A DNA stretch of 64,000 bases, taken from Noviherbaspirillum sp. Root189. GTDB taxonomy: Bacteria; Pseudomonadota; Gammaproteobacteria; Burkholderiales; Burkholderiaceae_D. The position numbers and the translations under genes were made by a program. Position 1 is the stretch's first letter. Each line of letters begins with the position of its first letter. The stretch lies in NCBI RefSeq assembly GCF_001428545.1, contig NZ_LMHZ01000022.1:1-64000 (forward strand), given 5' to 3'. The notes beneath the pieces were generated by a model that did not search any database, was not told where the DNA came from, and saw only the letters and a program-made list of their open reading frames with translations. Of this stretch, positions 3,471-18,562 are shown one piece after another.

Positions 3471-4412
3471 ATGGCGCTTACCAGCCAGCAGAATGAATTA
3501 GTTAAACTCTACGTCGCCGGATTTCTTCGAGCGCCAGAAAAAGGCGGCTTTGAATACTGGTCATCATTGCTTTCCGCAGGAAAGAGCATGGCGGAGGTGG
3601 CTGACATCATTTTCAAGTTACCGATCGTCGAGCAGGTATATCCGGCTGGACTGTCCAACGCCGATTTTGTGACCAAGATTTATCAGAATGTCTTCAATAA
3701 AGCCCCTGATGCGGGTGGCTTGGCATACTGGACTGATGGTTTAGATAAAAGCGGACAGCGTGGCCAACTGGTTCTCGACATGATCAATGCCGGGATGAAT
3801 TCGCCTGAAGGCACGCCTGGAAAAGCCTTTATCGTCAATCGTGTTTCTACTGCCAGCTTTGCTGCGGAAGTACAGATTTTGCAGCAAAAAGAGCTTGCAC
3901 CTGATACGCTCAAATCCCTTCTCGCCCAAGTGACGGACAGTATTAACTCCGTGCCGGCTGTCAATGCGGCTACGAATACCGAGCTGGCGAATGTGGTTGG
4001 CGCCGTTGCTAAAGCTTTCGCAATTGAGTTCATAGATGCCGCGATCCACTGGCAGATCGACAAAAAGTCGTACATCATGGAAGGTTTCGACGGTTTGGAA
4101 ATACAGCCGGGCACAACACATACGGGATTCGCAGATCTGTTTTCGATGGACCTTCATCCGGATGTGTCACCGACGACGCCGGGATACATCACGGTGCAGT
4201 TATACGGCGACAATAACCATAACTGGAAACTGACTGCGAGCGACATGGCGGAGTATGTACAAGTGCTGGAGACTGACGCCTACATCAATCGCTCCATTAC
4301 CTACCAAGAAACGCAAAATTTTGACGCCTACCTCCAAGATACCTTAGCGTCGGCCAGCGTCTACGATCTGCTTGTCGCACAAGGGCCGCAGTTGCCGGCT
4401 TTCTGGTTTTAA
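3471..4412 (+). CDS. DUF4214-domain protein
   Basis: A 313-residue protein with two DUF4214-type helical units (residues about 8-50 and 55-100). Each carries the signature of an aromatic residue, a R/KAP(D/E) turn and a GGxxYW motif (LRAPEKGGFEYW and NKAPDAGGLAYW). In other bacteria this domain occurs in secreted adhesins, S-layer-like and haemolysin-type proteins. The C-terminal 200 residues match nothing I know and end in LPAFWF. No signal peptide is visible; an aromatic C-terminus could fit a type I secretion signal, but that is inference. The start at 3471 is chosen from AGGAG seven bases upstream; the longer frame back to 3357 lacks a ribosome site. It stands alone and is followed by a hairpin. 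Confidence 0.75.
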   Translation: MALTSQQNELVKLYVAGFLRAPEKGGFEYWSSLLSAGKSMAEVADIIFKLPIVEQVYPAGLSNADFVTKIYQNVFNKAPDAGGLAYWTDGLDKSGQRGQLVLDMINAGMNSPEGTPGKAFIVNRVSTASFAAEVQILQQKELAPDTLKSLLAQVTDSINSVPAVNAATNTELANVVGAVAKAFAIEFIDAAIHWQIDKKSYIMEGFDGLEIQPGTTHTGFADLFSMDLHPDVSPTTPGYITVQLYGDNNHNWKLTASDMAEYVQVLETDAYINRSITYQETQNFDAYLQDTLASASVYDLLVAQGPQLPAFWF

Positions 4413-4438
4413 AGCCATTTCTTTCTGACCGTACTGTC

Positions 4439-4461
4439 GTCCCGGACGCATTGTCCGGGAC
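4439..4461 (+). terminator. Hairpin after the DUF4214 gene
   Basis: A perfect 9-bp stem (GTCCCGGAC / GTCCGGGAC) with a 5-base loop begins 27 bases after the stop codon at 4412. No T-run follows, so it is either a weak terminator or a 3'-end stabilising hairpin. Confidence 0.5.
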
Positions 4462-4805
4462 ACTAGATCACCGATGCCCGCACGCCGCGTTGAATAGGAT
4501 TCTTATTGCATTGTTGGTTCTTGGTCCATCAACTAGGCATCGCGGTGCAGATCAGATGGCCGACTCGCGTGGGGGTCTCGGCAAGCAACTCAGCACACGC
4601 CGTTTGATTTATTAAGAAATGAAGTGATTACGTCCAAGCAAAGTTTTGCAAAGTTGCAAAAGTGACGATTTGGGCGTAGTGCCAAACAGGAACGCGCGAT
4701 TTTACGCGGTGTCGTTTCGAACTTAGGCGAATAGAAAAGCCGGAAAGCCTTGAACTTAAATTTAGTGGCTTCACAGCAAACTGCGGGATAAATCGTGAAG
4801 CTATT
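4462..4805. other. Gene-free stretch upstream of tRNA-Leu 3' end
   Basis: This interval of about 340 bp has no gene I can support. The open frames that cross it on the minus strand start inside the tRNA-Leu gene and have no ribosome site. No integrase or attachment-site duplication of the tRNA 3' end is visible within the window. Confidence 0.4.
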
Positions 4806-4890
4806 TGGTGCCCAAAAGAGGACTCGAACCTCCACACCTTTCGGCACAGCGACCTCAACGCTGCGTGTCTACCAATTCCACCATCTGGGC
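4806..4890 (-). tRNA. tRNA-Leu (anticodon GAG)
   Basis: On the minus strand the sequence folds as a class II tRNA of 85 bases. The acceptor begins GCCCAGA and pairs with TTTGGGC; the anticodon stem CAGCG/CGCTG encloses loop TTGAGGT, giving anticodon GAG. A variable arm (TGCCGAAAGGTG) and the T-loop GGTTCGAGTCC follow. CCA is encoded (4806-4808). It reads CUC/CUU leucine codons. Confidence 0.96.
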
Positions 4891-4989
4891 ATTCCACAGA
4901 TTGTCATGTCCATGCGCATACAACAAAACCACATAGGACCAATAGAAAGGGATTGAGGAAATATCCACAATCCCTTTCCTGACAAATAC

Positions 4990-5066
4990 TGGTGCGGCTG
5001 GCAGGAATCGAACCCACGACCCCTTGGTTCGTAGCCAAGTACTCTATCCAGCTGAGCTACAGCCGC
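4990..5066 (-). tRNA. tRNA-Arg (anticodon ACG)
   Basis: On the minus strand a 77-base tRNA with acceptor GCGGCTG/CAGCCGC, D-arm GCTCAGCTGGATAGAGT, anticodon stem CTTGG/CCAAG with loop CTACGAA (anticodon ACG) and T-loop GGTTCGAATCC. CCA is encoded. It reads CGN arginine codons after A34-to-inosine editing. It lies 99 bp upstream of tRNA-Leu in the same orientation, so the pair may share one transcript. Confidence 0.96.
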
Positions 5067-5279
5067 AAAGCGCAGGAGTGTAGCACGCGGGCCGCAAAAT
5101 CGGAAGCCCAGTCATGGTGGCAATATTCCGAACTTGCCATGTCGTTGTACGAAGTCGAGCCAGCATGGCCGCAATAGCTATTCGTTTATGTAGCATTTAA
5201 CCGAGCCCTCCAGACATCGCCAGAATTTTGATCGGGACATAAACCGAGTCGCTGGTTGGCAAGCTCCAAGCGTGTTGTA

Positions 5280-8143: not shown

Positions 8144-8527
8144 ATGGACACGAAGAAGGCATTACTCGACTTGACGCGAGCACTGAGGAGTCTGCACCAG
8201 GCATTGGTGAAAGTTGTCCAGAAAGACTATGAGCGTGAATGGGGACAGGTCGACCCCAGCCAGTTGCTACAGCTGTTGACCCGCCATCCGCAGTTCGAAT
8301 GGCTGCATGGGCTTAGCGAATTTATGGTTGATGTCGATGCCCTGAGCGATGCTGAGATTATCGATGAACCGAGCGTTGTCGCAATCTACGCCCAAGCGCG
8401 CCGACTGATATCGTCCGACGATGATAGTCCCCTGGAATTCACCAGGCGCTACCTGGACGTTCTTCAAAACGATCCGGCACTGATAATCGAACATGCAACA
8501 GTACGGCGCATTCTTGATAGTCTTTAA
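8144..8527 (+). CDS. Conserved-looking hypothetical protein
   Basis: A 127-residue soluble helical protein beginning MDTKKALLDLTRALRSLHQA. A ribosome site (AAAGGG) precedes the ATG. It has no signal or membrane segment. It contains a short FEWLHGLSEFMVDVDAL motif and an acidic centre. I do not recognise the family with certainty. It follows the Usp gene by about 115 bp and precedes the DSF locus, so co-regulation with either is possible but unproven. Confidence 0.65.
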   Translation: MDTKKALLDLTRALRSLHQALVKVVQKDYEREWGQVDPSQLLQLLTRHPQFEWLHGLSEFMVDVDALSDAEIIDEPSVVAIYAQARRLISSDDDSPLEFTRRYLDVLQNDPALIIEHATVRRILDSL

Positions 8528-8779
8528 GACGGGTCGCCTATCTGATATATCGACGGTCGCACTTTTGCAACTCCGGCAACGCTTTTTGTTTTAGGAAGGT
8601 CCTCATATGGCATGATGTACGGGGGTGTCAATTAAAAAATACGTCTTATCAAGCTTTTGGCGGCGGCGTTGTGCCGTAGAATGCAGTAATATTGATGTAA
8701 AGCAACTTAGTGGTGTGTCGTCAGCGAATCCAGCAATCCAAGCAGATCCTGTCTACTGACTAACCAATTCACAATCGGC

Positions 8780-10009
8780 ATGACATCACAACCCGACGCA
8801 GTCGCCAACACCATATCAGGATTGAAAGTCCTGGTCCTTGAAGACCAATCCTTCCAGCGCAACCTGCTGGTTGGTGTCCTTCATCATCTCGGCATCACCG
8901 CCGTCGAAAGCGCGGGTGACGGCTCCGCAGCATTGGATGCGCTGAAACGAACGCAAGGTGAATTTGACGTTGCCATCTGCGACCTCCGCATGGAGGGCAT
9001 GGATGGCATCGAATTCATCCGCCGTGCGGCCAACTATAGCGTCAAGTCCTTTATTGTTACTTCTGCAATCGATACCGGTTTACTGGCTTCGGCCGAAGCG
9101 GTGCTGCGCAGCTATAACACCAGGTTGCTTGGCGTGCTTCCCAAACCGGTAAACATTGATTGTCTAAAAGGCATGCTGGCCGATTGCAAAAAGGCCAAGG
9201 TTCAGGAGATGGCGGCCCCTGCGAGTGCCGTCAAGGTGGTGCATACCACCTCAGAGATCCGTGAAGGATTGGCCAACAACCAGTTTATCCCCTACTTTCA
9301 ACCCAAGTTCTGTCTTGAAACCGGCATGCCTAGTGGGGTCGAAATGTTGGCAAGATGGGCACATCCGGGTTTTGGCATTCTGTCACCTGCTGCCTTTGTG
9401 CCGGCGATGGAAGAAGCTGGCCTGATCGATGCGTTAAGCGACAGCCTGTTTTCACATGCCTTAACGTGCGCCAGGGAGTGGTCGCAGATTGGTTGCGATA
9501 TCGGCATGGCAATCAACCTTTCGCCGTTAACACTGCAAAATACAGATATGCCGAACCAGATCGGCAGCCTCGTACGGCGCTACGGTATTGCTCCCGGCAG
9601 GATCACAATCGAAGTCACCGAGACCGCAGTGTCGCAGAACGTGTCAGGCCTGATGGAGTCGCTGACAAGATTGCGCATGCAAGGCTTCGCCATTTCAGTC
9701 GATGACTTCGGGACAGGATATTCGTCGCTGCTTCAATTGAGCGAAATGCCCTTTACCGAGATCAAGATCGACCGCAACTTCGTCTCCGGCGCAACCGAAA
9801 ACCGAAAAACGACGCTCATCGCCGAGTCGATTGTCGACCTGGCGAAAAAACTGGACTTGCACACTGTCGCGGAAGGCGTGGAAACCCGCGCCGAGCTGGA
9901 CTTCATCCGCAAGCTCGGTTGCGAGACCGGACAGGGTTACTTCCTTGCCAAGCCGATGAATCAGATGGACCTGATGAAGTTCCTCGCTTCGGCCCGGCGG
10001 CCTGGCTAG
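8780..10009 (+). CDS. REC-EAL response regulator, predicted cyclic-di-GMP phosphodiesterase
   Basis: A 409-residue two-domain regulator. Residues about 15-130 are a receiver domain with acidic pair E21/D22, phospho-acceptor D68 (AICDLRM) and K122 (PKP). Residues about 158-402 are an EAL domain. The signature is E188-M-L instead of EAL, which keeps the metal-ligand Glu; N246, E278, D308-D309 (DDFGTGYSS), K329 and E365 (AEGVET) are all present, so c-di-GMP hydrolysis to pGpG is predicted. It ends nine bases before the rpfC-like kinase and should be its phospho-relay target. In Xanthomonas the same job is done by RpfG, which carries HD-GYP rather than EAL. It should lower c-di-GMP when the kinase senses the signal. 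Confidence 0.92.
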   Translation: MTSQPDAVANTISGLKVLVLEDQSFQRNLLVGVLHHLGITAVESAGDGSAALDALKRTQGEFDVAICDLRMEGMDGIEFIRRAANYSVKSFIVTSAIDTGLLASAEAVLRSYNTRLLGVLPKPVNIDCLKGMLADCKKAKVQEMAAPASAVKVVHTTSEIREGLANNQFIPYFQPKFCLETGMPSGVEMLARWAHPGFGILSPAAFVPAMEEAGLIDALSDSLFSHALTCAREWSQIGCDIGMAINLSPLTLQNTDMPNQIGSLVRRYGIAPGRITIEVTETAVSQNVSGLMESLTRLRMQGFAISVDDFGTGYSSLLQLSEMPFTEIKIDRNFVSGATENRKTTLIAESIVDLAKKLDLHTVAEGVETRAELDFIRKLGCETGQGYFLAKPMNQMDLMKFLASARRPG

Positions 10010-10018
10010 TCGCGGCGG

Positions 10019-12181
10019 ATGACTACGGAATTTCGGGATTCGGGAAGCGGGTCCAGGACTGATTTTTCGGAAAGGGCGATCAAACGCCCTGAACTGGAAC
10101 AAGCGGTAATCAGACTGGCACTCGGTCTCCTCCTGATTAGTTATTACACCTTCGGCACTTGGGGTTCGCCTCAGCGGCAGGATGCATGGTGGCTGGTCAA
10201 CGACCTCATCATGGCGCTCTGGCTGGTTGTGTGTATCAGCATTATCGTCGCCATCCGTATCGGCAAGCCCTACAGCACCTTCCGCCGTATCGCCGCGGTC
10301 ACGACCGATGTCGCCAATACGACTTACTTTATCTACGCGACTCCGGACCTTGCCGCGCCGCTATTCTGTCTTTATCTGTGGTTCATCATCGGGCACGGAT
10401 TCCGGTTTGGCACGGCTTATCTGTATTACACACTGGCGCTGGCGTTTGCAGGATTTACAACCGTCGTGGCAACGCAGCCTTATTGGGATGACAAGCAGGC
10501 AGTCGGATTCGGACTGGCCATCGGCATGGTCGTGATTTCGCTTTACCTCGCTACGCTGGTTCGGAGACTGACGCAGGCACTCGCAACGGCAGAAGCGGCA
10601 AACCTGGCTAAACGTCGTTTCGTCTCGTCGGTCAGCCATGAAATGCGCACCCCACTGAATGCCATTATCGGCATGTCGGACCTGCTGCGGAGCACTGAAC
10701 TGAATCGAGACCAGAAAGAAATGGTGCGTAGCCTGGACAGTGCGTCCAAGCTCTTGTTGGCGTTGGTCGATGATGTGCTGGATTTTTCGAAGATTGAAGC
10801 GGGCAAATTGACTGTTGAGGTCACCGCATTTGATCTTGCCACGGTGATCGAAGATACGCGCAGGTTGTTCAGGCATCAGGCAGAAGAAAAGGGTCTCGAC
10901 CTGCGGATAGAAATACAGAGAGACGTACCATTGCAACTGTTAGGTGATCCGACTCTCCTGCGGCAGGTTCTGACAAATTTTCTGTCAAATGCAATCAAGT
11001 TTACAAGCCAGGGATCCGTGACCCTTCGCATTGCCGCACTGGCGGTGCAGGATACGCAAGCGCAGATCCTGTTCGAGGTCGAGGATACCGGTATCGGCAT
11101 CAATCCCAAGGCTAAGGCCCATATTTTTGAAAGCTTTACACAAGCAGACCCGTCAACGACACGCAAGTACGGTGGGACCGGACTTGGCACCACAATTGCA
11201 AAACAGTTAGTCGAGTTGATGGGTGGGCGCATCGGCTTTCGTAGCGTCGAAGGCATGGGAAGCACTTTCTGGTTTGACTTGCGCTTTGGGCGTCATGACG
11301 CTACACATGCCCCTGCTTGCATTGCTGAGCCATCGATGACGTCGACCTCGGCGTCGCTGACCAGCTTACGCACGCCTGATTCATTCAAGCGCTGCGCAAT
11401 CCTGATTGCCGATGATAACGAAACCAACCGCCGCGTGGTCGCTCAGATATTGAAACGCGCGGGACATCATGCAGAGTCGGTTGAGAACGGAGATGAAGTG
11501 CTCGAAATACTTGAGCAACGCACGTTCGATCTGGTAATCCTGGACATGAATATGCCGGACATGAACGGCATCGATGTCTTTCGCGCCTATCAGTACACGC
11601 GTCCCGCCGGTATTCGCTTACCCTTCATCATGCTGTCCGCCGACGTCAGCAACGAGCTTCAGCAAGAATGCCTGGACGCCGGTTTTGATGCATTCCTTCC
11701 CAAACCCATCCAGTCGGATGTCTTGCTCAAGACGATCGGTGCACTTGCCACTGCCATTCCGACCTCAATGCCTGAGCCTGCACTCGAACCGGGCACATCG
11801 GTGAGTAACTTTGTCGATTTTTCGACCCTGGATCAGCTTGACCGGATAAGTCACACCCGTGATTTTGTCGACGGCCTGATTGACGATTTTTCAACCGAAG
11901 CCGTAGTAATTATTTCGAAGATTGAAAAGGCACTGGCACTGCAGCGCCCCGCCGAAGCAAAACGCATTGCACATGCCCTGAAGGGCACCGCATTGGGTGT
12001 GGGCGCAATCGGCCTGTGCGCCGTCTGCGAACGCATAGATAAACTTGCCGTATCCGACCTTGTCGGGAACGCAGGACAGATCGTATCCGAACTGCGCAGT
12101 GCGCTCTCACGAACGGACGATTTGCTCGTTCCCTATCGCAGGACACGGCATGCCATGCCTTCATCGACGCGTCTTCATTGA
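10019..12181 (+). CDS. rpfC: RpfC-type hybrid histidine kinase (DSF sensor)
   Basis: A 720-residue hybrid kinase with the RpfC architecture. Residues about 25-185 hold five hydrophobic segments (including FCLYLWFIIGHGFRFG, a stretch typical of RpfC-type sensors). Next come a HisKA domain with H207 (SHEMRTPLN), a HATPase (about 310-425), a receiver domain with D509 (LDMNMPDM) and an HPt domain with H652 (AHALKGTALG). In Xanthomonas RpfC the equivalent residues are H198, D512 and H657, almost the same spacing. In that system RpfC senses cis-2-unsaturated fatty acids, relays phosphate to a c-di-GMP hydrolase and also restrains RpfF. The neighbouring REC-EAL gene and the rpfF-like gene support the assignment. 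Signal identity is not determined by sequence. Confidence 0.92.
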   Translation: MTTEFRDSGSGSRTDFSERAIKRPELEQAVIRLALGLLLISYYTFGTWGSPQRQDAWWLVNDLIMALWLVVCISIIVAIRIGKPYSTFRRIAAVTTDVANTTYFIYATPDLAAPLFCLYLWFIIGHGFRFGTAYLYYTLALAFAGFTTVVATQPYWDDKQAVGFGLAIGMVVISLYLATLVRRLTQALATAEAANLAKRRFVSSVSHEMRTPLNAIIGMSDLLRSTELNRDQKEMVRSLDSASKLLLALVDDVLDFSKIEAGKLTVEVTAFDLATVIEDTRRLFRHQAEEKGLDLRIEIQRDVPLQLLGDPTLLRQVLTNFLSNAIKFTSQGSVTLRIAALAVQDTQAQILFEVEDTGIGINPKAKAHIFESFTQADPSTTRKYGGTGLGTTIAKQLVELMGGRIGFRSVEGMGSTFWFDLRFGRHDATHAPACIAEPSMTSTSASLTSLRTPDSFKRCAILIADDNETNRRVVAQILKRAGHHAESVENGDEVLEILEQRTFDLVILDMNMPDMNGIDVFRAYQYTRPAGIRLPFIMLSADVSNELQQECLDAGFDAFLPKPIQSDVLLKTIGALATAIPTSMPEPALEPGTSVSNFVDFSTLDQLDRISHTRDFVDGLIDDFSTEAVVIISKIEKALALQRPAEAKRIAHALKGTALGVGAIGLCAVCERIDKLAVSDLVGNAGQIVSELRSALSRTDDLLVPYRRTRHAMPSSTRLH

Positions 12182-12236
12182 GCGTCCTCTCTGATCAAAC
12201 CACTCTTATCATCAACAAGAAACAACCGGGAACACC

Positions 12237-12878
12237 ATGTCATTTTTCATTGAACTGATAGAAGCAACCGACACCAGCCGCCGTGAAATGGAAGCATTGC
12301 CTAAAGTACAAGACATGCTAAACGGCCGCATGACCGAAGAGGCCTACAAGGCCTTCCTGATGGACCTTTACCATATCGTCTGGCACTTCTGCCCCATCAT
12401 GGCCACCGCGGCGAGCCGCTGCCCCGACGGGTTCATCGATGTACGTTATCATCTTTACCACAACATCGACGAAGAAAAAGGGCATGAGAATATGGTGCTC
12501 AGCGATCTGGGGCATTTCGATGTACCCGCCAGCATTGTAAAAGATGCAATGCCGTCTCCCAGCGTGCAAGCGATGATCGCTTATAACTACTACGTGTCGG
12601 AACGGGTCCATCCTTGCTGCGTACTCGGTATGTTGTACGTGCTCGAAATTATCTCGTCCGTATATGGCGGACAGGTCGCATCGTCGATAGCCAATGGTCT
12701 GAATAAACCCCTTCCGGATGGCTTTTCATTCCTCGAGTCGCATGCCTCAATGGATCTCGACCATATGGCCCGGCTCCGCGAACTGTTGCAAACCATCGAG
12801 GACGAGTCCGTGCAGAAGACGGTCATCAATTCGATTCATATGAATTTCTACCTGTTCAGCCAGTTCCTTTCGCAATAA
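12237..12878 (+). CDS. Heme-oxygenase-like diiron protein (HDO / TenA-PqqC superfamily)
   Basis: A 213-residue all-helical protein of the heme-oxygenase-like fold. It has a complete candidate diiron ligand set: E80-x2-H83 (DEEKGHEN), E137 (VLEIIS) and H169-x3-D173-x2-H176 (ESHASMDLDHM). From memory this order and spacing match UndA, CADD and SznF-type diiron oxidases, which act on fatty acids, amino acids or N-groups. It therefore is probably an O2-dependent oxidase, not a thiaminase or PqqC. It sits 55 bp after rpfC and 143 bp before rpfF, so a role in making, modifying or degrading the fatty-acyl signal is plausible but unproven. I know of no characterised member in a DSF locus. Start is the ATG at 12237; a weak GGGAA lies upstream. 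Confidence 0.8.
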   Translation: MSFFIELIEATDTSRREMEALPKVQDMLNGRMTEEAYKAFLMDLYHIVWHFCPIMATAASRCPDGFIDVRYHLYHNIDEEKGHENMVLSDLGHFDVPASIVKDAMPSPSVQAMIAYNYYVSERVHPCCVLGMLYVLEIISSVYGGQVASSIANGLNKPLPDGFSFLESHASMDLDHMARLRELLQTIEDESVQKTVINSIHMNFYLFSQFLSQ

Positions 12879-12898
12879 GGCTTTCAGGTTTTTCGCTC

Positions 12899-12934
12899 TG
12901 CTGCCGGCGCACGGCCATCAACCAGCCGGCAGCA
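12899..12934 (+). terminator. 10-bp inverted repeat between the diiron gene and rpfF
   Basis: A perfect inverted repeat (TGCTGCCGGC / GCCGGCAGCA) with a 16-base loop starts 20 bases after the diiron gene. It lacks a T-run. It could be a partial terminator, a processing hairpin or an operator, and would separate rpfF expression from the upstream genes. Confidence 0.45.
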
Positions 12935-13021
12935 CGATGGTAATTTAAACAACTGCATTCATTTAAGGCAAACTTCATTTACATTAGTCCCGCAGCACCA
13001 ATTCTTAAAAAGGACTAAATA

Positions 13022-13954
13022 ATGAATGCTTTAACTGATGTCAAATTCCTCCAGCCTCATCGTCACACTATCGGCAAACCTTACAAGCAGCTCGTCGTCG
13101 AATACGATCGCGAGACGAAGGCTGTGTGGACCTACCTGAACCCCACTGGCACTCCTTGCTTCAATCTGGGCCTGTTGAATGATTTGATCGATAACCATAA
13201 GTCATTTAATGCCAATGGCGGCAAGGCCATGTGCGAAGGCTCACTTGAGCCGATTGAGTACTTCGTCGGGGCGTCGAAAACGGAACACATCTTCAACTAT
13301 GGCGGCGACCTTGCGTTATTCGTCTTACTGATCAAGTCCCGGGATCGCCAGGCACTGCTGCACTACGCCAAGATGTGTATCGACTGCCTGCATGGGCGGC
13401 TGACCAGTTACGATACGAACGCGGTGACGATTTCGCTTATACAGGGCGACGCACTCGGCGGCGGGTTTGAATCGGCGTTAAGCAGCAACGTGATCATTGC
13501 TGAAGAAAGCAGTCGAATGGGTTTTCCGGAAATCCTGTTCAACCTTTTCCCGGGAATGGGCGCGTATAGCCTGCTTGCGCGTCGCCTCGGCGCAAAAATG
13601 GCCGAAGAAATGATCTTGAGCGGGAAAATTTACAGTGCATCCGAATTGCACCAGCTTGGCCTGGTGGACGTGCTGGTACCCGATGGGCAAGGCGAAAACG
13701 CAGTGTACGACTTCATTCATACCAACAACCGCAAGAAGAACGGCATGCGCGCAATGTATGAATGTCGCCGGCATACCAATCCTGTTACCTACGATGAGCT
13801 CATGAACATCACCGAAGTCTGGGTGGACGCCGCCCTAAGGCTCGAAGACCGGGATCTAAAGATGATGGGACGACTTGTACGGTCGCAGCAACGTCAGCTC
13901 GCTTCACGCAAGGAAGGACAAGCTATTAATCCAGCCAACGACTTTGTGGAGTGA
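13022..13954 (+). CDS. rpfF: RpfF-type DSF synthase (crotonase superfamily)
   Basis: A 310-residue crotonase-fold enzyme. In the RpfF family the protein acts as acyl-ACP thioesterase and 3-hydroxyacyl-ACP dehydratase, making cis-2-unsaturated fatty acid signals. The two catalytic glutamates are present as E150 (GGGFESALS) and E170 (GFPEILFNLFPGMGAYSL), 20 residues apart exactly as E141/E161 of Xanthomonas RpfF. The oxyanion glycine motif GDALGGG is intact. An AAAGGA ribosome site lies eight bases before the ATG. It follows rpfC and the diiron gene on the same strand. Ordinary enoyl-CoA hydratases lack the long N-terminal part (HTIGKPYKQLVVEYDRETK) and the FNLFPGMGAYS motif, so the RpfF call is firm. 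Chain length and branching of the product cannot be read from sequence. Confidence 0.93.
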   Translation: MNALTDVKFLQPHRHTIGKPYKQLVVEYDRETKAVWTYLNPTGTPCFNLGLLNDLIDNHKSFNANGGKAMCEGSLEPIEYFVGASKTEHIFNYGGDLALFVLLIKSRDRQALLHYAKMCIDCLHGRLTSYDTNAVTISLIQGDALGGGFESALSSNVIIAEESSRMGFPEILFNLFPGMGAYSLLARRLGAKMAEEMILSGKIYSASELHQLGLVDVLVPDGQGENAVYDFIHTNNRKKNGMRAMYECRRHTNPVTYDELMNITEVWVDAALRLEDRDLKMMGRLVRSQQRQLASRKEGQAINPANDFVE

Positions 13955-14296
13955 AATCCAGAAGATTTCCCCGTGTCGTATGCCTGAATTGGTCGACTGA
14001 GAACGCATACCAGTTTCAACCCGTAGCATAACCAGTAATATCGATGGTTCGCGTTATGGGTTGGGATTGGGCTTGGTATTGATATTGGTATTGCGTTCCC
14101 TGCAGCACGAGTTCTCGTCCCACCCACTTGCCGCAAGGAGCCGAAAGGCTTCGGCCCTTGCTTACTCATTCTGATCAATTTGACGCGGATCAAGCAAAAT
14201 CCCTTTTTGCCCACGTCCGTCAACATTCTTAGCCAGCAAGAGAGAGATACTGTTCATTCGTAATCCCCTGTCGTTGTGTACGCCGGAAGAAAACCT
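13955..14296. other. Intergenic region between rpfF and the PHA-synthase gene
   Basis: About 340 bp without a gene. It holds a decayed copy of the 172-bp repeat element (14007-14092, listed separately). The rest has no recognisable promoter. The PHA-synthase gene may be transcribed with rpfF or from its own promoter here. Confidence 0.5.
14007..14092. repeat. Repeat element R1, copy D (internally deleted, diverged)
   Basis: The first 40 bases align with the left part of the intact element at 24796 (ATACCAnTnnCAACCnGTA then ATCGATGG). They are joined directly to the right end (GCGTTATGGGTTGGGATTGG), so about 90 bp of the interior is missing. Two copies of TTGGTATT follow at the right end. Confidence 0.65.
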
Positions 14297-16090
14297 ATGG
14301 ACACATCAGCACATGAACCAGGCAAGACGGAACGTCTTGGCAGTGCCTGGCTTGGGACCATTCCGCACGATGATCCCTGGTACCACGGAACTGCGGACAG
14401 TCTTGATCGCGCATTCAACGCCTACATGGGACGTCTGACAGCAAATGTTTCACCGGCTTCGCTATGGTTGGCGTACTGCGACTGGATTATTCATTTACAG
14501 CTTTCCCCTTCCAAACAGCATCAGTTACTACTCGAAGCATGGAGAAAATATTGGCAGTGGCAGTCGCTCCATGCACACTCTTTCCTCCACCTGGAGGATA
14601 TGCACCGGCAGCGCGTGGAACCGCTGCCACAGGATAAGCGCTTCGCCGGCGAAGGATGGAAGCAATGGCCGTTTGACGTGTTTTCACAAGGTTTCTTGCT
14701 GACGCAGCAGTGGTGGCATCGTGCAACAACCGGCGTGGTCGGTGTGTCTCGTCACCACGAACAGGTCGTGACCTTCGTTGCACGCCAATTACTTGACACA
14801 CTGTCGCCATCCAATTATCTGCCGACCAATCCAGATGCGATTCAGGAGACCGTGCGCAGCAACGGAGCGAACCTGGTCCGCGGCGCGGTCAAGGAACGGA
14901 AAGATATTGAAGCTTTGATCACGGGCATTCCGCCGACCTCTGCGGACGGTCTTCGCGTCGGCAAGTCGCTGGGAATAACTCCCGGCAAGGTGATTTACAG
15001 GAACCGCCTCATTGAATTGATCCAGTACGCACCGACGACACCTGCGGTGCAGGCTCGCCCTGTCCTCTTTGTGCCGGCATGGATCATGAAATACTACATC
15101 CTCGATCTGTCGCCTGAAAACAGTCTGGTGCGCTACCTGGTCGGCCAGGGTTATACGGTATTCATGATCTCATGGAAAAATCCCGGGGTTAAAGACCGCG
15201 ATTTGTCCATGGAAGACTATCGTCAGCTAGGCATCATGGCGGCAATCGATGCCATCGCGGAAGTCACTGGCTGTGACAAGCTCAATGCAGTCGGCTACTG
15301 CCTGGGCGGAACCCTGCTGTCGATCGCGGCAGCAACCATGGCCCGTGACGGCGACGAGCGCCTGTCGAGTATTTCACTCTTTGCCGCCCAGGTGGACTTC
15401 ACCGAGCCGGGAGAACTGTCCCTGTTTATCGACGAGAGCCAGATCGCGCAGCTCGAAGCAAGTATGTGGGATCAGGGATTTCTCGATACCAAACAGATGG
15501 CGGGTGCTTTTCAGCTATTGCGCTCGAACGACCTGATCTGGTCACGCCGGTTAAACCAATATATTCTCGGGCAGCCGGAACGACGCAACGATCTCGCCGC
15601 ATGGAACGCCGATGCGACACGCATGCCGTACCGCATGCATTCAGAGTATTTGCGTCGCTTGTTTCTAGGAAACGACTTTGCGGAAGGAAGGTACCGGGTC
15701 CACGGAAGAACGGTCGCCATCACGGATATCCGTGTCCCGATTTTCGCGGTCGGTACATTAACCGATCACGTTGCACCGTGGCGATCCGTATTCAAAATCC
15801 ACTTGCTTGCAGATACCGAGGTGACATTCCTGCTGACCAGCGGTGGCCATAATGCGGGCGTGGTCTCGCCACCCGGGCAACCGAAACGAAGCTACCAAGT
15901 GGCCCGGCATCGGCACGACGACGCCTACATCGATCCTGATACGTGGGAAGCGACGGTGCCGACAACGGAAGGCTCGTGGTGGCCAGCGTGGGAGTCGTGG
16001 CTGAAAGCGAGTTCGGGTGAGTCCGTGCACCCGCCAGCCATGGGTAAAGCCCTATGCTCCGCACCCGGCACCTACGTGATGGTGACGTAA
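14297..16090 (+). CDS. Poly(3-hydroxyalkanoate) synthase-like alpha/beta hydrolase (PhaC family)
   Basis: A 597-residue protein of the class I PHA synthase type, about the usual length. The lipase-box-like motif has the catalytic cysteine (C335 in GYCLGGT). The catalytic Asp lies in VGTLTDHVAPW and the His in SGGHNAGVVSPPG. Residues about 75-170 match the PhaC N-terminal domain. PHA synthases polymerise 3-hydroxyacyl-CoA into storage granules. The ATG at 14297 is preferred; a GTG at 14276 would add seven residues. The gene lies downstream of rpfF with no phaA, phaB or phasin nearby, so it may be an accessory synthase. A link to fatty-acyl signalling through shared 3-hydroxyacyl precursors is only inference. 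Confidence 0.88.
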   Translation: MDTSAHEPGKTERLGSAWLGTIPHDDPWYHGTADSLDRAFNAYMGRLTANVSPASLWLAYCDWIIHLQLSPSKQHQLLLEAWRKYWQWQSLHAHSFLHLEDMHRQRVEPLPQDKRFAGEGWKQWPFDVFSQGFLLTQQWWHRATTGVVGVSRHHEQVVTFVARQLLDTLSPSNYLPTNPDAIQETVRSNGANLVRGAVKERKDIEALITGIPPTSADGLRVGKSLGITPGKVIYRNRLIELIQYAPTTPAVQARPVLFVPAWIMKYYILDLSPENSLVRYLVGQGYTVFMISWKNPGVKDRDLSMEDYRQLGIMAAIDAIAEVTGCDKLNAVGYCLGGTLLSIAAATMARDGDERLSSISLFAAQVDFTEPGELSLFIDESQIAQLEASMWDQGFLDTKQMAGAFQLLRSNDLIWSRRLNQYILGQPERRNDLAAWNADATRMPYRMHSEYLRRLFLGNDFAEGRYRVHGRTVAITDIRVPIFAVGTLTDHVAPWRSVFKIHLLADTEVTFLLTSGGHNAGVVSPPGQPKRSYQVARHRHDDAYIDPDTWEATVPTTEGSWWPAWESWLKASSGESVHPPAMGKALCSAPGTYVMVT

Positions 16091-16404: not shown

Positions 16405-17700
16405 CTAATCCGTGGGTATGCCACGAAAAAGCATGACGTCGATCGGGGTGACCATAGGACTGTCATTTCCCCAACTTGTCCGAGTATAAGAAACGACTGC
16501 GGCAATCTCGTGATCGTTCAGTGTTGTGCCAAATGGCGGCATGCCATAGGGTCGCGGATTGCCGCGTGTCACAGGCGCGAACCCTCCATTGAGGACGATG
16601 CGTATGGCGTTAACCGGAGAAGGCGCGCGCAATGTGGAACTGCCGGCTAACGGGGGGTAGGCAATGCCTGCCCCCTTCCCGTTCGCCTGATGGCATTCGG
16701 CGCAGTGACGTTCGTAAAGGCGCCCGCCGTCCCTGAGAACGGCAGTCGCTTCGGGTGATCTTTCGGCCGGAGCACTTCGTGCTACGGGCATGGCGCCGGT
16801 CGTTATGGATTTCAGATAGATGGCCATCGCTTCGATGTCCTCGCCCGACAGGTGCTGCAGGCTGGTGCTGACAACGCCCGCCATTGGACCAAAAGCGGCT
16901 CCGCGTGCCGACACGCCGGTATGCAGAAAGTCCTTCACATCCTTAACGCGCCAATCGCCAAGGCCTTCCTCGCCGCTTGAAGTCAACGCGGAGGCATACC
17001 AGTTCGACACCGGCATCATTCCTCCGGCCAAATCATTTTTCGGCGAGTTGGCACCCAGTGCGTTTCTTGCGGTGTGGCAGGCGCTGCAATGGCCAAGCCC
17101 TTTTACCAGATAGGCGCCGCGGTTCCATTGTGCAGTCTGGTGATCGGCCGGCACATATTCGCTTGGACGAAAGTACAGTGCGCGCCATGCGGCTAACAGA
17201 ATCGGTTGGTTATAGGGAAAACGCAAGGCATGTATCCGATTATCCTGCTGGACGGGAGGAACGGTTTTCAGATAAGCAAACAACGCATCCGAATCCGCGC
17301 GCGTGACGTTGGTGTAATTCGTATAAGGGAATGCGGGATACAGCAGACGACCGCTCTTCGATTTGCCATGATGCAGCGCTCTCCAGAAATCATCGGGCGA
17401 CCAGGTGCCGATCCCGGTCTCTGGGTCCGGGGTAATATTGGACGTATAGATGTCACCAAACGGCGTGCTGATCGCGCGCCCACCGGCGTACGCCATGCCG
17501 CCACGCACGGTATGGCATGCCATACAGTTACCTGCACGCGCAAGGTAGCGTCCACGCGAGGCCTCGCCAGCCATTTCGGTCGGCGCGCTGCGTGTGCTTG
17601 TGCTCAGCGGGTCGGTAAACATATCTCGCATCAATATGAAGGCCGGAATGGCAACAAGGATGAAAACACCGGCAACTATCGGCAATAAAAATCGTTTCAT
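16405..17700 (-). CDS. Triheme cytochrome c, membrane-anchored (alcohol-dehydrogenase cytochrome subunit type)
   Basis: A 431-residue exported protein with an N-terminal hydrophobic helix (FLLPIVAGVFILVAIPAFIL) and three CxxCH haem sites: CMACH, CSACH and CAECH. Length, haem number and motifs such as SNITPDPETGIGTW and FPYTNYTNVTRAD fit the cytochrome c subunits that pass electrons from periplasmic alcohol, gluconate or aldehyde dehydrogenases to quinone or oxidases. No dehydrogenase gene is adjacent. It starts at the ATG at 17700, giving an N-terminus of MKRFLLP, with AGGAA upstream. The diheme cytochrome gene ends 34 bp upstream in the same direction, so the two form an operon. Confidence 0.88.
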   Translation of the reverse strand: MKRFLLPIVAGVFILVAIPAFILMRDMFTDPLSTSTRSAPTEMAGEASRGRYLARAGNCMACHTVRGGMAYAGGRAISTPFGDIYTSNITPDPETGIGTWSPDDFWRALHHGKSKSGRLLYPAFPYTNYTNVTRADSDALFAYLKTVPPVQQDNRIHALRFPYNQPILLAAWRALYFRPSEYVPADHQTAQWNRGAYLVKGLGHCSACHTARNALGANSPKNDLAGGMMPVSNWYASALTSSGEEGLGDWRVKDVKDFLHTGVSARGAAFGPMAGVVSTSLQHLSGEDIEAMAIYLKSITTGAMPVARSAPAERSPEATAVLRDGGRLYERHCAECHQANGKGAGIAYPPLAGSSTLRAPSPVNAIRIVLNGGFAPVTRGNPRPYGMPPFGTTLNDHEIAAVVSYTRTSWGNDSPMVTPIDVMLFRGIPTD

Positions 17701-17734
17701 GTGGGTTCCTAAATTCCTGACTTCCTTGCGTCCT

Positions 17735-18562
17735 TCATGGATAAGGCACACTGCCGCAATCCAGCGGCAGTTTCATGCTCGCGGACGAAGCAGGCGTCAT
17801 ATCATCCGGAACGGGTTGGGATGCCAGCCATGCGGACACCGCCTGGATATCGGCCGGTTGCAGAACCCGGCTGATCTGTGCCATGCAGTCCGGCGCCGCG
17901 GCGTGCCTGGCTCCCGACTTCCATGCGCCGAACTGCGCATTCAGGTAGTCCCTCGGTAGTCCGACAAGGCTGGGAATAGTCGGCGTGGCGCCAGTCAGGT
18001 TCTTGCCGTGGCAAGCGATACAGGCCGGGATGTTGCGCGACGCGTCACCGTGGATGACCAGTCCGCGTCCATGCTCAAGCGTCGACCGGGAAAACGCCGA
18101 TCGCTGTGCTGGCGGATATGGCAGTTGCTGGTCAGCGAAATACTGAGCGATCTCCTTCAGGTAAGCATCCGACATGTGCGCAACCATCGCATTCATTAAC
18201 GGATACTGGCGCCGCCCTTCCCTGAAGTTGACAAGCTGGTTGTACAGGTAACCCGCCGGCTTGCCGGCAATACGTGGAAAAAATCCGTCCCGCGTTGCGC
18301 GTCCCTCCTTGCCGTGGCAAGTCGCGCATGCGGCGACGCGCTCGGCGGTTGTATCAATTTGCCGAACGGTAGGCTCGGAATTCGAGCCGCGTTGGATCAG
18401 AACGCTGGTGTCGTTCTCTGCCGCATGGCCAATACCGATCCATAGCAAAGGGAATAGAGTTGCAATAACGGTTGTTTTGGCTGTTGACCTGAGAGCTTGC
18501 CAGACATGGCTTTCTGTCCGAATGCAGGACGTCTGAAGGAAATTGCAAAAGGGTATGTGCAC
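17735..18562 (-). CDS. Diheme cytochrome c (c4-like), exported
   Basis: A 275-residue protein with a signal peptide (TTVIATLFPLLWIGIGHA followed by AEND) and two CxxCH sites (CATCH and CIACH) about 105 residues apart, each followed by a GK-rich loop, as in cytochrome c4-type duplicated haem domains. It would act as a periplasmic electron carrier. The start codon is GTG at 18560-18562 with GGAG nine bases upstream. It is the first gene of a two-cytochrome operon, so it may feed electrons from, or to, the triheme partner. Confidence 0.85.
   Translation of the reverse strand: MHIPFCNFLQTSCIRTESHVWQALRSTAKTTVIATLFPLLWIGIGHAAENDTSVLIQRGSNSEPTVRQIDTTAERVAACATCHGKEGRATRDGFFPRIAGKPAGYLYNQLVNFREGRRQYPLMNAMVAHMSDAYLKEIAQYFADQQLPYPPAQRSAFSRSTLEHGRGLVIHGDASRNIPACIACHGKNLTGATPTIPSLVGLPRDYLNAQFGAWKSGARHAAAPDCMAQISRVLQPADIQAVSAWLASQPVPDDMTPASSASMKLPLDCGSVPYP

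Follow-up and report, generated by a model that had tools for sequence, protein, structure and literature searches.

A stretch of 64,000 nucleotides from Noviherbaspirillum sp. Root189 (contig NZ_LMHZ01000022.1, positions 1 to 64,000, forward strand; hereafter the window) carries a gene for a predicted heme-oxygenase-like diiron oxidase (HDO) inside a locus for diffusible signal factor (DSF) signalling. DSF signals are usually treated as the direct product of a single enzyme, RpfF. The HDO gene adjoins an rpfF homologue at almost all of the related loci and is fused to it in four genomes, an arrangement suggesting that in these bacteria the DSF-type signal is oxidised once it has been made. 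We consider it probable, if well short of certain, that the HDO is dedicated to RpfF and oxidises the fatty acid which RpfF releases, thereby changing the signal (tailoring it) and not clearing it.

The gene and the codons of its predicted metal ligands are as follows, with ligand counts over 37 distinct loci:

12237..12878, plus strand: HDO gene, predicted diiron oxidase, an open reading frame of 213 amino acids.
12474..12485, plus strand: ligands E80 to H83 as E-x2-H (E80 in 37/37 loci, H83 in 37/37).
12645..12647, plus strand: ligand E137 (37/37 loci).
12741..12764, plus strand: ligands H169, D173 and H176 as H-x3-D-x2-H (H169 in 36/36 readable loci, D173 as 34 D and one E in 35, H176 in 35/35).

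An initial annotation of this DNA, made from the sequence alone, had described a 213-residue, all-helical protein with these six ligands. Translation confirmed the frame, all six residues lie where they had been placed, and wherever they are readable they are invariant with the sole exception of the one D173-to-E substitution. The AlphaFold model consists of 10 helices (mean predicted local distance difference test score, pLDDT, 94.2; predicted template modelling score, pTM, 0.89). In the model, E80 ends helix 64-80, H83 starts helix 83-92, E137 lies inside helix 126-154, and H169, D173 and H176 lie inside helix 164-184. The predicted fold is that of heme oxygenase, and the fold search itself did not discriminate between HDO, TenA and heme oxygenase. 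Across 10 pairs of related HDO genes, counted with our own script, synonymous sites were at or near saturation (proportion of synonymous differences, pS, 0.60-1.02) whereas the nonsynonymous proportion, pN, was 0.12-0.22, and the gene is therefore under purifying selection.

The protein matches the Pfam family PF14518 ('Iron-containing redox enzyme') at 6.4e-17 and 62.4 bits (cut-off 28.9). Because this match is well over its cut-off and the six ligands are nearly invariant, the gene is not a product of chance. The cut-off of PF01126 (Heme_oxygenase) was exceeded narrowly and by a weaker match (24.5 versus 23 bits), and residues 1-45 contain no His, unlike canonical heme oxygenase (PF01126), whose proximal heme His sits in the first helix. 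For PF03070 (TENA_THI-4, TenA/PqqC) the score fell narrowly under the cut-off (21.8 versus 22 bits). A profile search had CADD (7.6e-06), MboA (1.2e-4) and UndA (0.004) among its matches, with no thiaminase and no PqqC; in a single-sequence search the thiaminase 2gm7 reached E 0.48, ranking far behind the Shewanella protein 3dde and behind MboA and CADD as well. Grouping with thiaminase or PqqC proteins, named beforehand in the initial annotation as one of two outcomes that would count against its reading, was thus not found, and neither identity is favoured. The UndA-like ligand order which the annotation had recognised holds for all six residues, which align with those of UndA at the same spacing (E-x2-H, E, H-x3-D-x2-H). 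On the combined weight of ligands, predicted fold and profile matches to CADD, MboA and UndA, we regard it as supported, at the level of sequence and model, that the frame encodes an HDO, which would bind iron.

That CADD scored above UndA in the profile search, and that the NCBIfam CADD model TIGR04305 was matched weakly (25.4 bits), might point to an HDO of other chemistry, such as CADD-like para-aminobenzoate (pABA) synthesis or amino-acid oxidation, which is merely co-regulated with the DSF genes. The 200-bit cut-off of TIGR04305 was missed by a wide margin, however, and linkage and fusion to RpfF also speak against such an enzyme; we give this explanation hardly any credence.

RpfF adjoins the HDO gene at 36 of the 37 distinct loci, and the 37th (L039; loci carry L numbers) is untestable since its contig breaks off within the HDO gene. 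The rpfF gene lies on the opposite strand at 28 loci, on the same strand at 4 and is fused to the HDO gene at 4, with L039 making up the total. Deduplication by sequence applies to this count only; L026 and L039 are 98% identical, and the total becomes 36 if they are merged. L039, a metagenome-assembled genome (MAG), is titled Bordetella parapertussis, and its 98% identity over 158 residues with the betaproteobacterial MAG L026 indicates that this label is probably wrong. At L030 (326-2176) the HDO gene occurs as a tandem pair, with the second copy split over two frames and RpfF also in pieces.

The linkage was examined further in genome samples that overlap each other and a pattern scan of genome contigs (the order and family samples share at least G000 and G018). 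The pattern scan gave 20 relatives, with RpfF at the locus in 18 of the 19 that have at least 39% identity; the 19th is the truncated L039, and the 20th, L041 (28% identity), has no RpfF at the locus. For the genome samples, window-type HDOs were defined by bit score against alignment A1, whose rows were picked by identity to the window protein and not by linkage, L041 being excluded. A gap separates them from a related HDO group: the lowest window-type place scored 237 bits (family sample) and the highest related-group place 181 bits (phylum sample). Among 399 order genomes, 58 had an HDO match; RpfF was adjacent in 7/7 of those at 260 bits or more and in 0/51 of the related group (at most 175 bits). 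Eight of these 51 do carry RpfF, distant or on another contig, and provide an inner control. The 195 family genomes gave 31 HDO matches, with RpfF beside 14/14 high-score and 0/17 low-score matches. The phylum sample of 398 genomes, scored for HDO matches only and with types assigned by bit score, gave 77: the window genome and one other of window type, and 75 in the related-group score class. In the whole-genome searches a small number of top candidates was scored for each genome (at most 7 and 5 in the two runs on the order, 15 and 11 in those on the family), and weaker second copies may be missed.

Accidental neighbourhood can be rejected, given RpfF at 36/37 loci and its absence beside the related group in the order and family samples. 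The initial annotation had tied the enzyme to DSF from its position and had proposed a neighbourhood survey for co-occurrence with rpfF. The survey upholds a real link to DSF synthesis; the chemistry proposed with it stays a list of candidates, in which the enzyme may desaturate, hydroxylate, decarboxylate or clear the signal.

RpfF and the HDO share one reading frame in L040, a MAG titled Alphaproteobacteria. Among 99 genomes drawn as relatives of L040 (L040 included), there were 9 HDO matches, comprising 4 RpfF-HDO fusions and 5 of the other type by score. The fusion frames are free of stops over 632-698 codons in four genomes (L040 and three of the 98 others), both domains exceed their Pfam cut-offs in 4/4 (in L040 the HDO passes PF03070 at 23.8 bits, cut-off 22), and the linkers differ among the four. 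An origin in a single bad assembly is rejected by the four separate genomes and their different linkers. In the model of one fusion, some 70 residues of low confidence (340-408) connect two ordered domains, and the overall pTM of 0.53 is too low to fix how the domains sit relative to each other. A PAS-containing hybrid kinase adjoins 4/4 fusions; an RpfC-like kinase lies beside 2/4, and the other two contigs end too early to tell. One fusion is followed by a gene for an MMPL-family transporter (L156:7011-9380, plus strand), which could export a lipid product.

Adjacency and fusion would also be seen for a non-catalytic partner, in which the HDO fold binds and regulates DSF or RpfF. RpfF is described as being held in check by RpfR and likewise by RpfC (PMC8357829). 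The near-complete invariance of six metal ligands points instead to a working metal site, and we consider a purely regulatory role highly improbable.

In a quick tree of 81 rows, built without the second L030 copy, L142 and L163-L169, the window family, including the fusions, is split from the related HDO group by a branch with a Shimodaira-Hasegawa-like approximate likelihood ratio test (SH-aLRT) value of 100; having no outgroup, the tree shows a split into two groups and not a rooted clade. A quick RpfF tree of 58 rows holds 27 with and 31 without an HDO. The HDO label needs 9 changes on it, at least 4 of them forced by well supported branches, a count that is rough given several long branches. 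RpfF was often found without a window-type HDO, while no readable window-type HDO lacked RpfF among the loci examined. As RpfF lives without the HDO and the HDO was not seen without RpfF, the pair shows the one-way dependence expected of an enzyme that acts on the product of RpfF.

These linkage data also fit an HDO that clears the signal, destroying DSF by oxidation or oxidative cleavage and serving the locus for turnover instead of an RpfB-type acyl-CoA ligase. That signals need removing is known, as RpfB-dependent DSF turnover is described in the literature, and the genes scanned beside the window rpfF include no acyl-CoA ligase (the rest of the genome was not searched for RpfB). Against clearance, RpfB has little activity on Burkholderia DSF (BDSF; PMC4504480), UndA-type decarboxylation may begin at C3-H, which on chemical grounds is vinylic in a cis-2-enoic acid, and fusion of synthase and destroyer in four genomes would make a futile cycle. 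Such a fusion would waste what the synthase makes; we therefore rate clearing below changing the signal, and judge it unlikely.

If the HDO tailors the signal, as we favour, RpfF would release a free C10-C14 acid, as cis-2-enoic acid with saturated and 3-hydroxy by-products. The carboxylate of this acid would bind the diferrous cluster, like lauric acid in UndA, and reaction with O2 would give a peroxo-diiron intermediate that abstracts a hydrogen close to the carboxyl group. For a cis-2-enoic acid this would be the weak allylic C4-H, giving a further desaturated or 4-oxygenated DSF; C3-H is one of two positions suggested for UndA but is vinylic in DSF, so that by chemical analogy attack at C4 is likelier. 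The form of the signal that reaches the sensor kinase would in that case vary with O2 and iron. Fatty and amino acids predominate among the known HDO substrates; five structures with bound substrate have that substrate directly on Fe1, and in UndA laurate is held there by its carboxylate (PMC13108848). RpfF yields free cis-2-enoic acid and also, acting as a thioesterase, saturated and hydroxy acids (PMC4504480). We infer that one of these free acids is the substrate.

The aligned ligands would also allow a UndA-like action on RpfF by-products, in which laurate and 3-hydroxylaurate, freed by the thioesterase activity of RpfF, become 1-alkenes or other oxidised products for disposal or as a volatile co-signal. 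UndA crystal structures are titled with lauric and beta-hydroxydodecanoic acid, and RpfF is a broad thioesterase (PMC4504480). Identity to UndA is low, however, and Trp190 of UndA, its radical relay residue (PMC13108848), is replaced by Phe165, which is Phe in 36/36 readable loci. Strict linkage to RpfF would moreover be unexpected for such an enzyme, since free saturated fatty acids also arise independently of RpfF. We regard this route as distinctly unlikely.

A more specific form of the tailoring proposal, which we hold only tentatively, is that RpfF and the HDO make up a two-step factory for an undescribed DSF-derived signal, such as a 2,4-dienoic, acetylenic or 4-oxygenated acid, whose formation would require O2 and iron together. 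With its cis bond keeping the chain in a favourable shape, a 4-hydroxy-cis-2-enoic acid could cyclise to a butenolide. A dedicated diiron oxidase, in some genomes within one polypeptide with RpfF, would mean that some DSF systems make an oxidised signal that could escape bioassays based on other receptors, and that signalling can be contingent on oxygen and iron. Functional validation exists for only about a dozen of more than 10,000 HDOs (PMC13108848); the present group offers a strong prior expectation of its substrate, together with an enzyme pair open to direct test.

The neighbours of the HDO gene in the window are:

8780..10009, plus strand: EAL-domain response regulator in the position of rpfG (PF00072 and PF00563).
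10019..12181, plus strand: rpfC-like hybrid histidine kinase, 720 amino acids (HisKA, HATPase_c, receiver and Hpt).
13022..13954, plus strand: rpfF homologue, DSF synthase-like crotonase, 310 amino acids (PDB 3m6m RpfF, 5.8e-61; 7zq7, 5.5e-62).

The HDO gene starts 55 bp after the kinase gene and ends 143 bp before the RpfF homologue, in agreement with the position between rpfC and rpfF that had been annotated. Window RpfF passes NF006452 (382 versus 177 bits) and misses the strict NF053515 equivalog (252.3 versus 550 bits). Its catalytic Glu residues E150 and E170, 20 residues apart, are invariant across 17 aligned rows, and the pair is kept in 33/36 RpfF of HDO loci, the remaining 3 being partial sequences. 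A hydropathy scan of the kinase predicts roughly five or six N-terminal membrane spans, and a homologue also adjoins the HDO in relatives. The window response regulator has EAL and not the HD-GYP of RpfG, and a 66% identical EAL-type regulator occurs in L022 (2506-3729). An HD-type, RpfG-like regulator precedes the kinase in 6/6 relatives scanned (L026, L100, L025, L029, L035 and L090). EAL for HD-GYP is a swap between two kinds of cyclic di-GMP phosphodiesterase within the same locus, and the genes seem most commonly to be ordered rpfG-rpfC-HDO and then rpfF, the last on the opposite strand in 28/36 loci. Among named organisms, Noviherbaspirillum galbum (76%) and N. massiliense (75%) have the closest relatives of the HDO gene. 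A promoter and terminator scan of 8500-14400 gave no signal clearly above shuffled sequence.

At 4 of the 37 loci, tblastn located a fatty-acid-hydroxylase-family gene between the kinase and the HDO, with Pfam applied to those of L032 and L035:

L032:5045-5974, minus strand: fatty-acid-hydroxylase-family gene, with PF04116.
L034:5092-5958, minus strand: fatty-acid-hydroxylase-family gene.
L035:5075-5953, minus strand: fatty-acid-hydroxylase-family gene, with PF04116.
L090:1902-2771, plus strand: fatty-acid-hydroxylase-family gene.

These genes are consistent with modification of fatty acids at the HDO locus. Downstream of rpfF the window carries a PhaC-like polyhydroxyalkanoate synthase gene (14276-16090, plus strand), for which tblastn over 182 loci found the window genome's own only, and then two cytochrome c genes on the opposite strand (16405-18562, minus strand). 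At L096, a locus without HDO, a beta-ketoacyl synthase gene (3875-5140, plus strand) lies between RpfF and the RpfC-like kinase.

Among known HDOs, UndA (fatty-acid decarboxylase; PDB 4wwj, 6p5q) shares the ligand spacing at 17% identity and differs at Phe165. The Shewanella protein 3dde, of no known function, is 23% identical. CADD, a pABA synthase (1rcw, 8va9), has Tyr where the window HDO has Phe165, and its first Glu and His ligands stand farther apart. The acetylenase MboA (9ypi) shares E86-x2-H89, E143 and H172-x3-D176 but differs in its peptide substrate, its mangotoxin cluster and its last His (D176-x4-H181, versus a gap of two here) (PMC13185094). The related HDO group is about 30% identical to the window HDO with nearly the same ligands, but it stands on the other side of the HDO tree, does not adjoin RpfF in the order and family samples, and has Tyr at position 165 in 51/51 (the residue table omits the same sequences as the tree, plus L039). 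Its gene set comprises a 'thermostable hemolysin' (PF12261, T_hemolysin), an AMP-binding acyl ligase, the HDO, a short-chain dehydrogenase (SDR) and a TPR protein, and is complete in L104, where the HDO is fused to the ligase, and partial in L102 and L103.

The window locus resembles the rpfF-rpfC-rpfG systems of Xanthomonas and Leptospirillum in its RpfF with both Glu residues, its RpfC-like hybrid kinase with Hpt and, in the six scanned relatives, an HD-type RpfG. It differs in the HDO gene between rpfC and rpfF and, in the window, in EAL for HD-GYP. The rpf layouts described in the accessible portions of PMC8357829 and PMC4504480 mention no HDO gene, and in open-access full text (subscription papers and preprints lie outside this coverage) we found no description of an HDO paired with or fused to RpfF. 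The HDO and the DSF locus are each of known kinds; their pairing and fusion, which equip a DSF locus with a diiron oxidase of its own, are apparently new.
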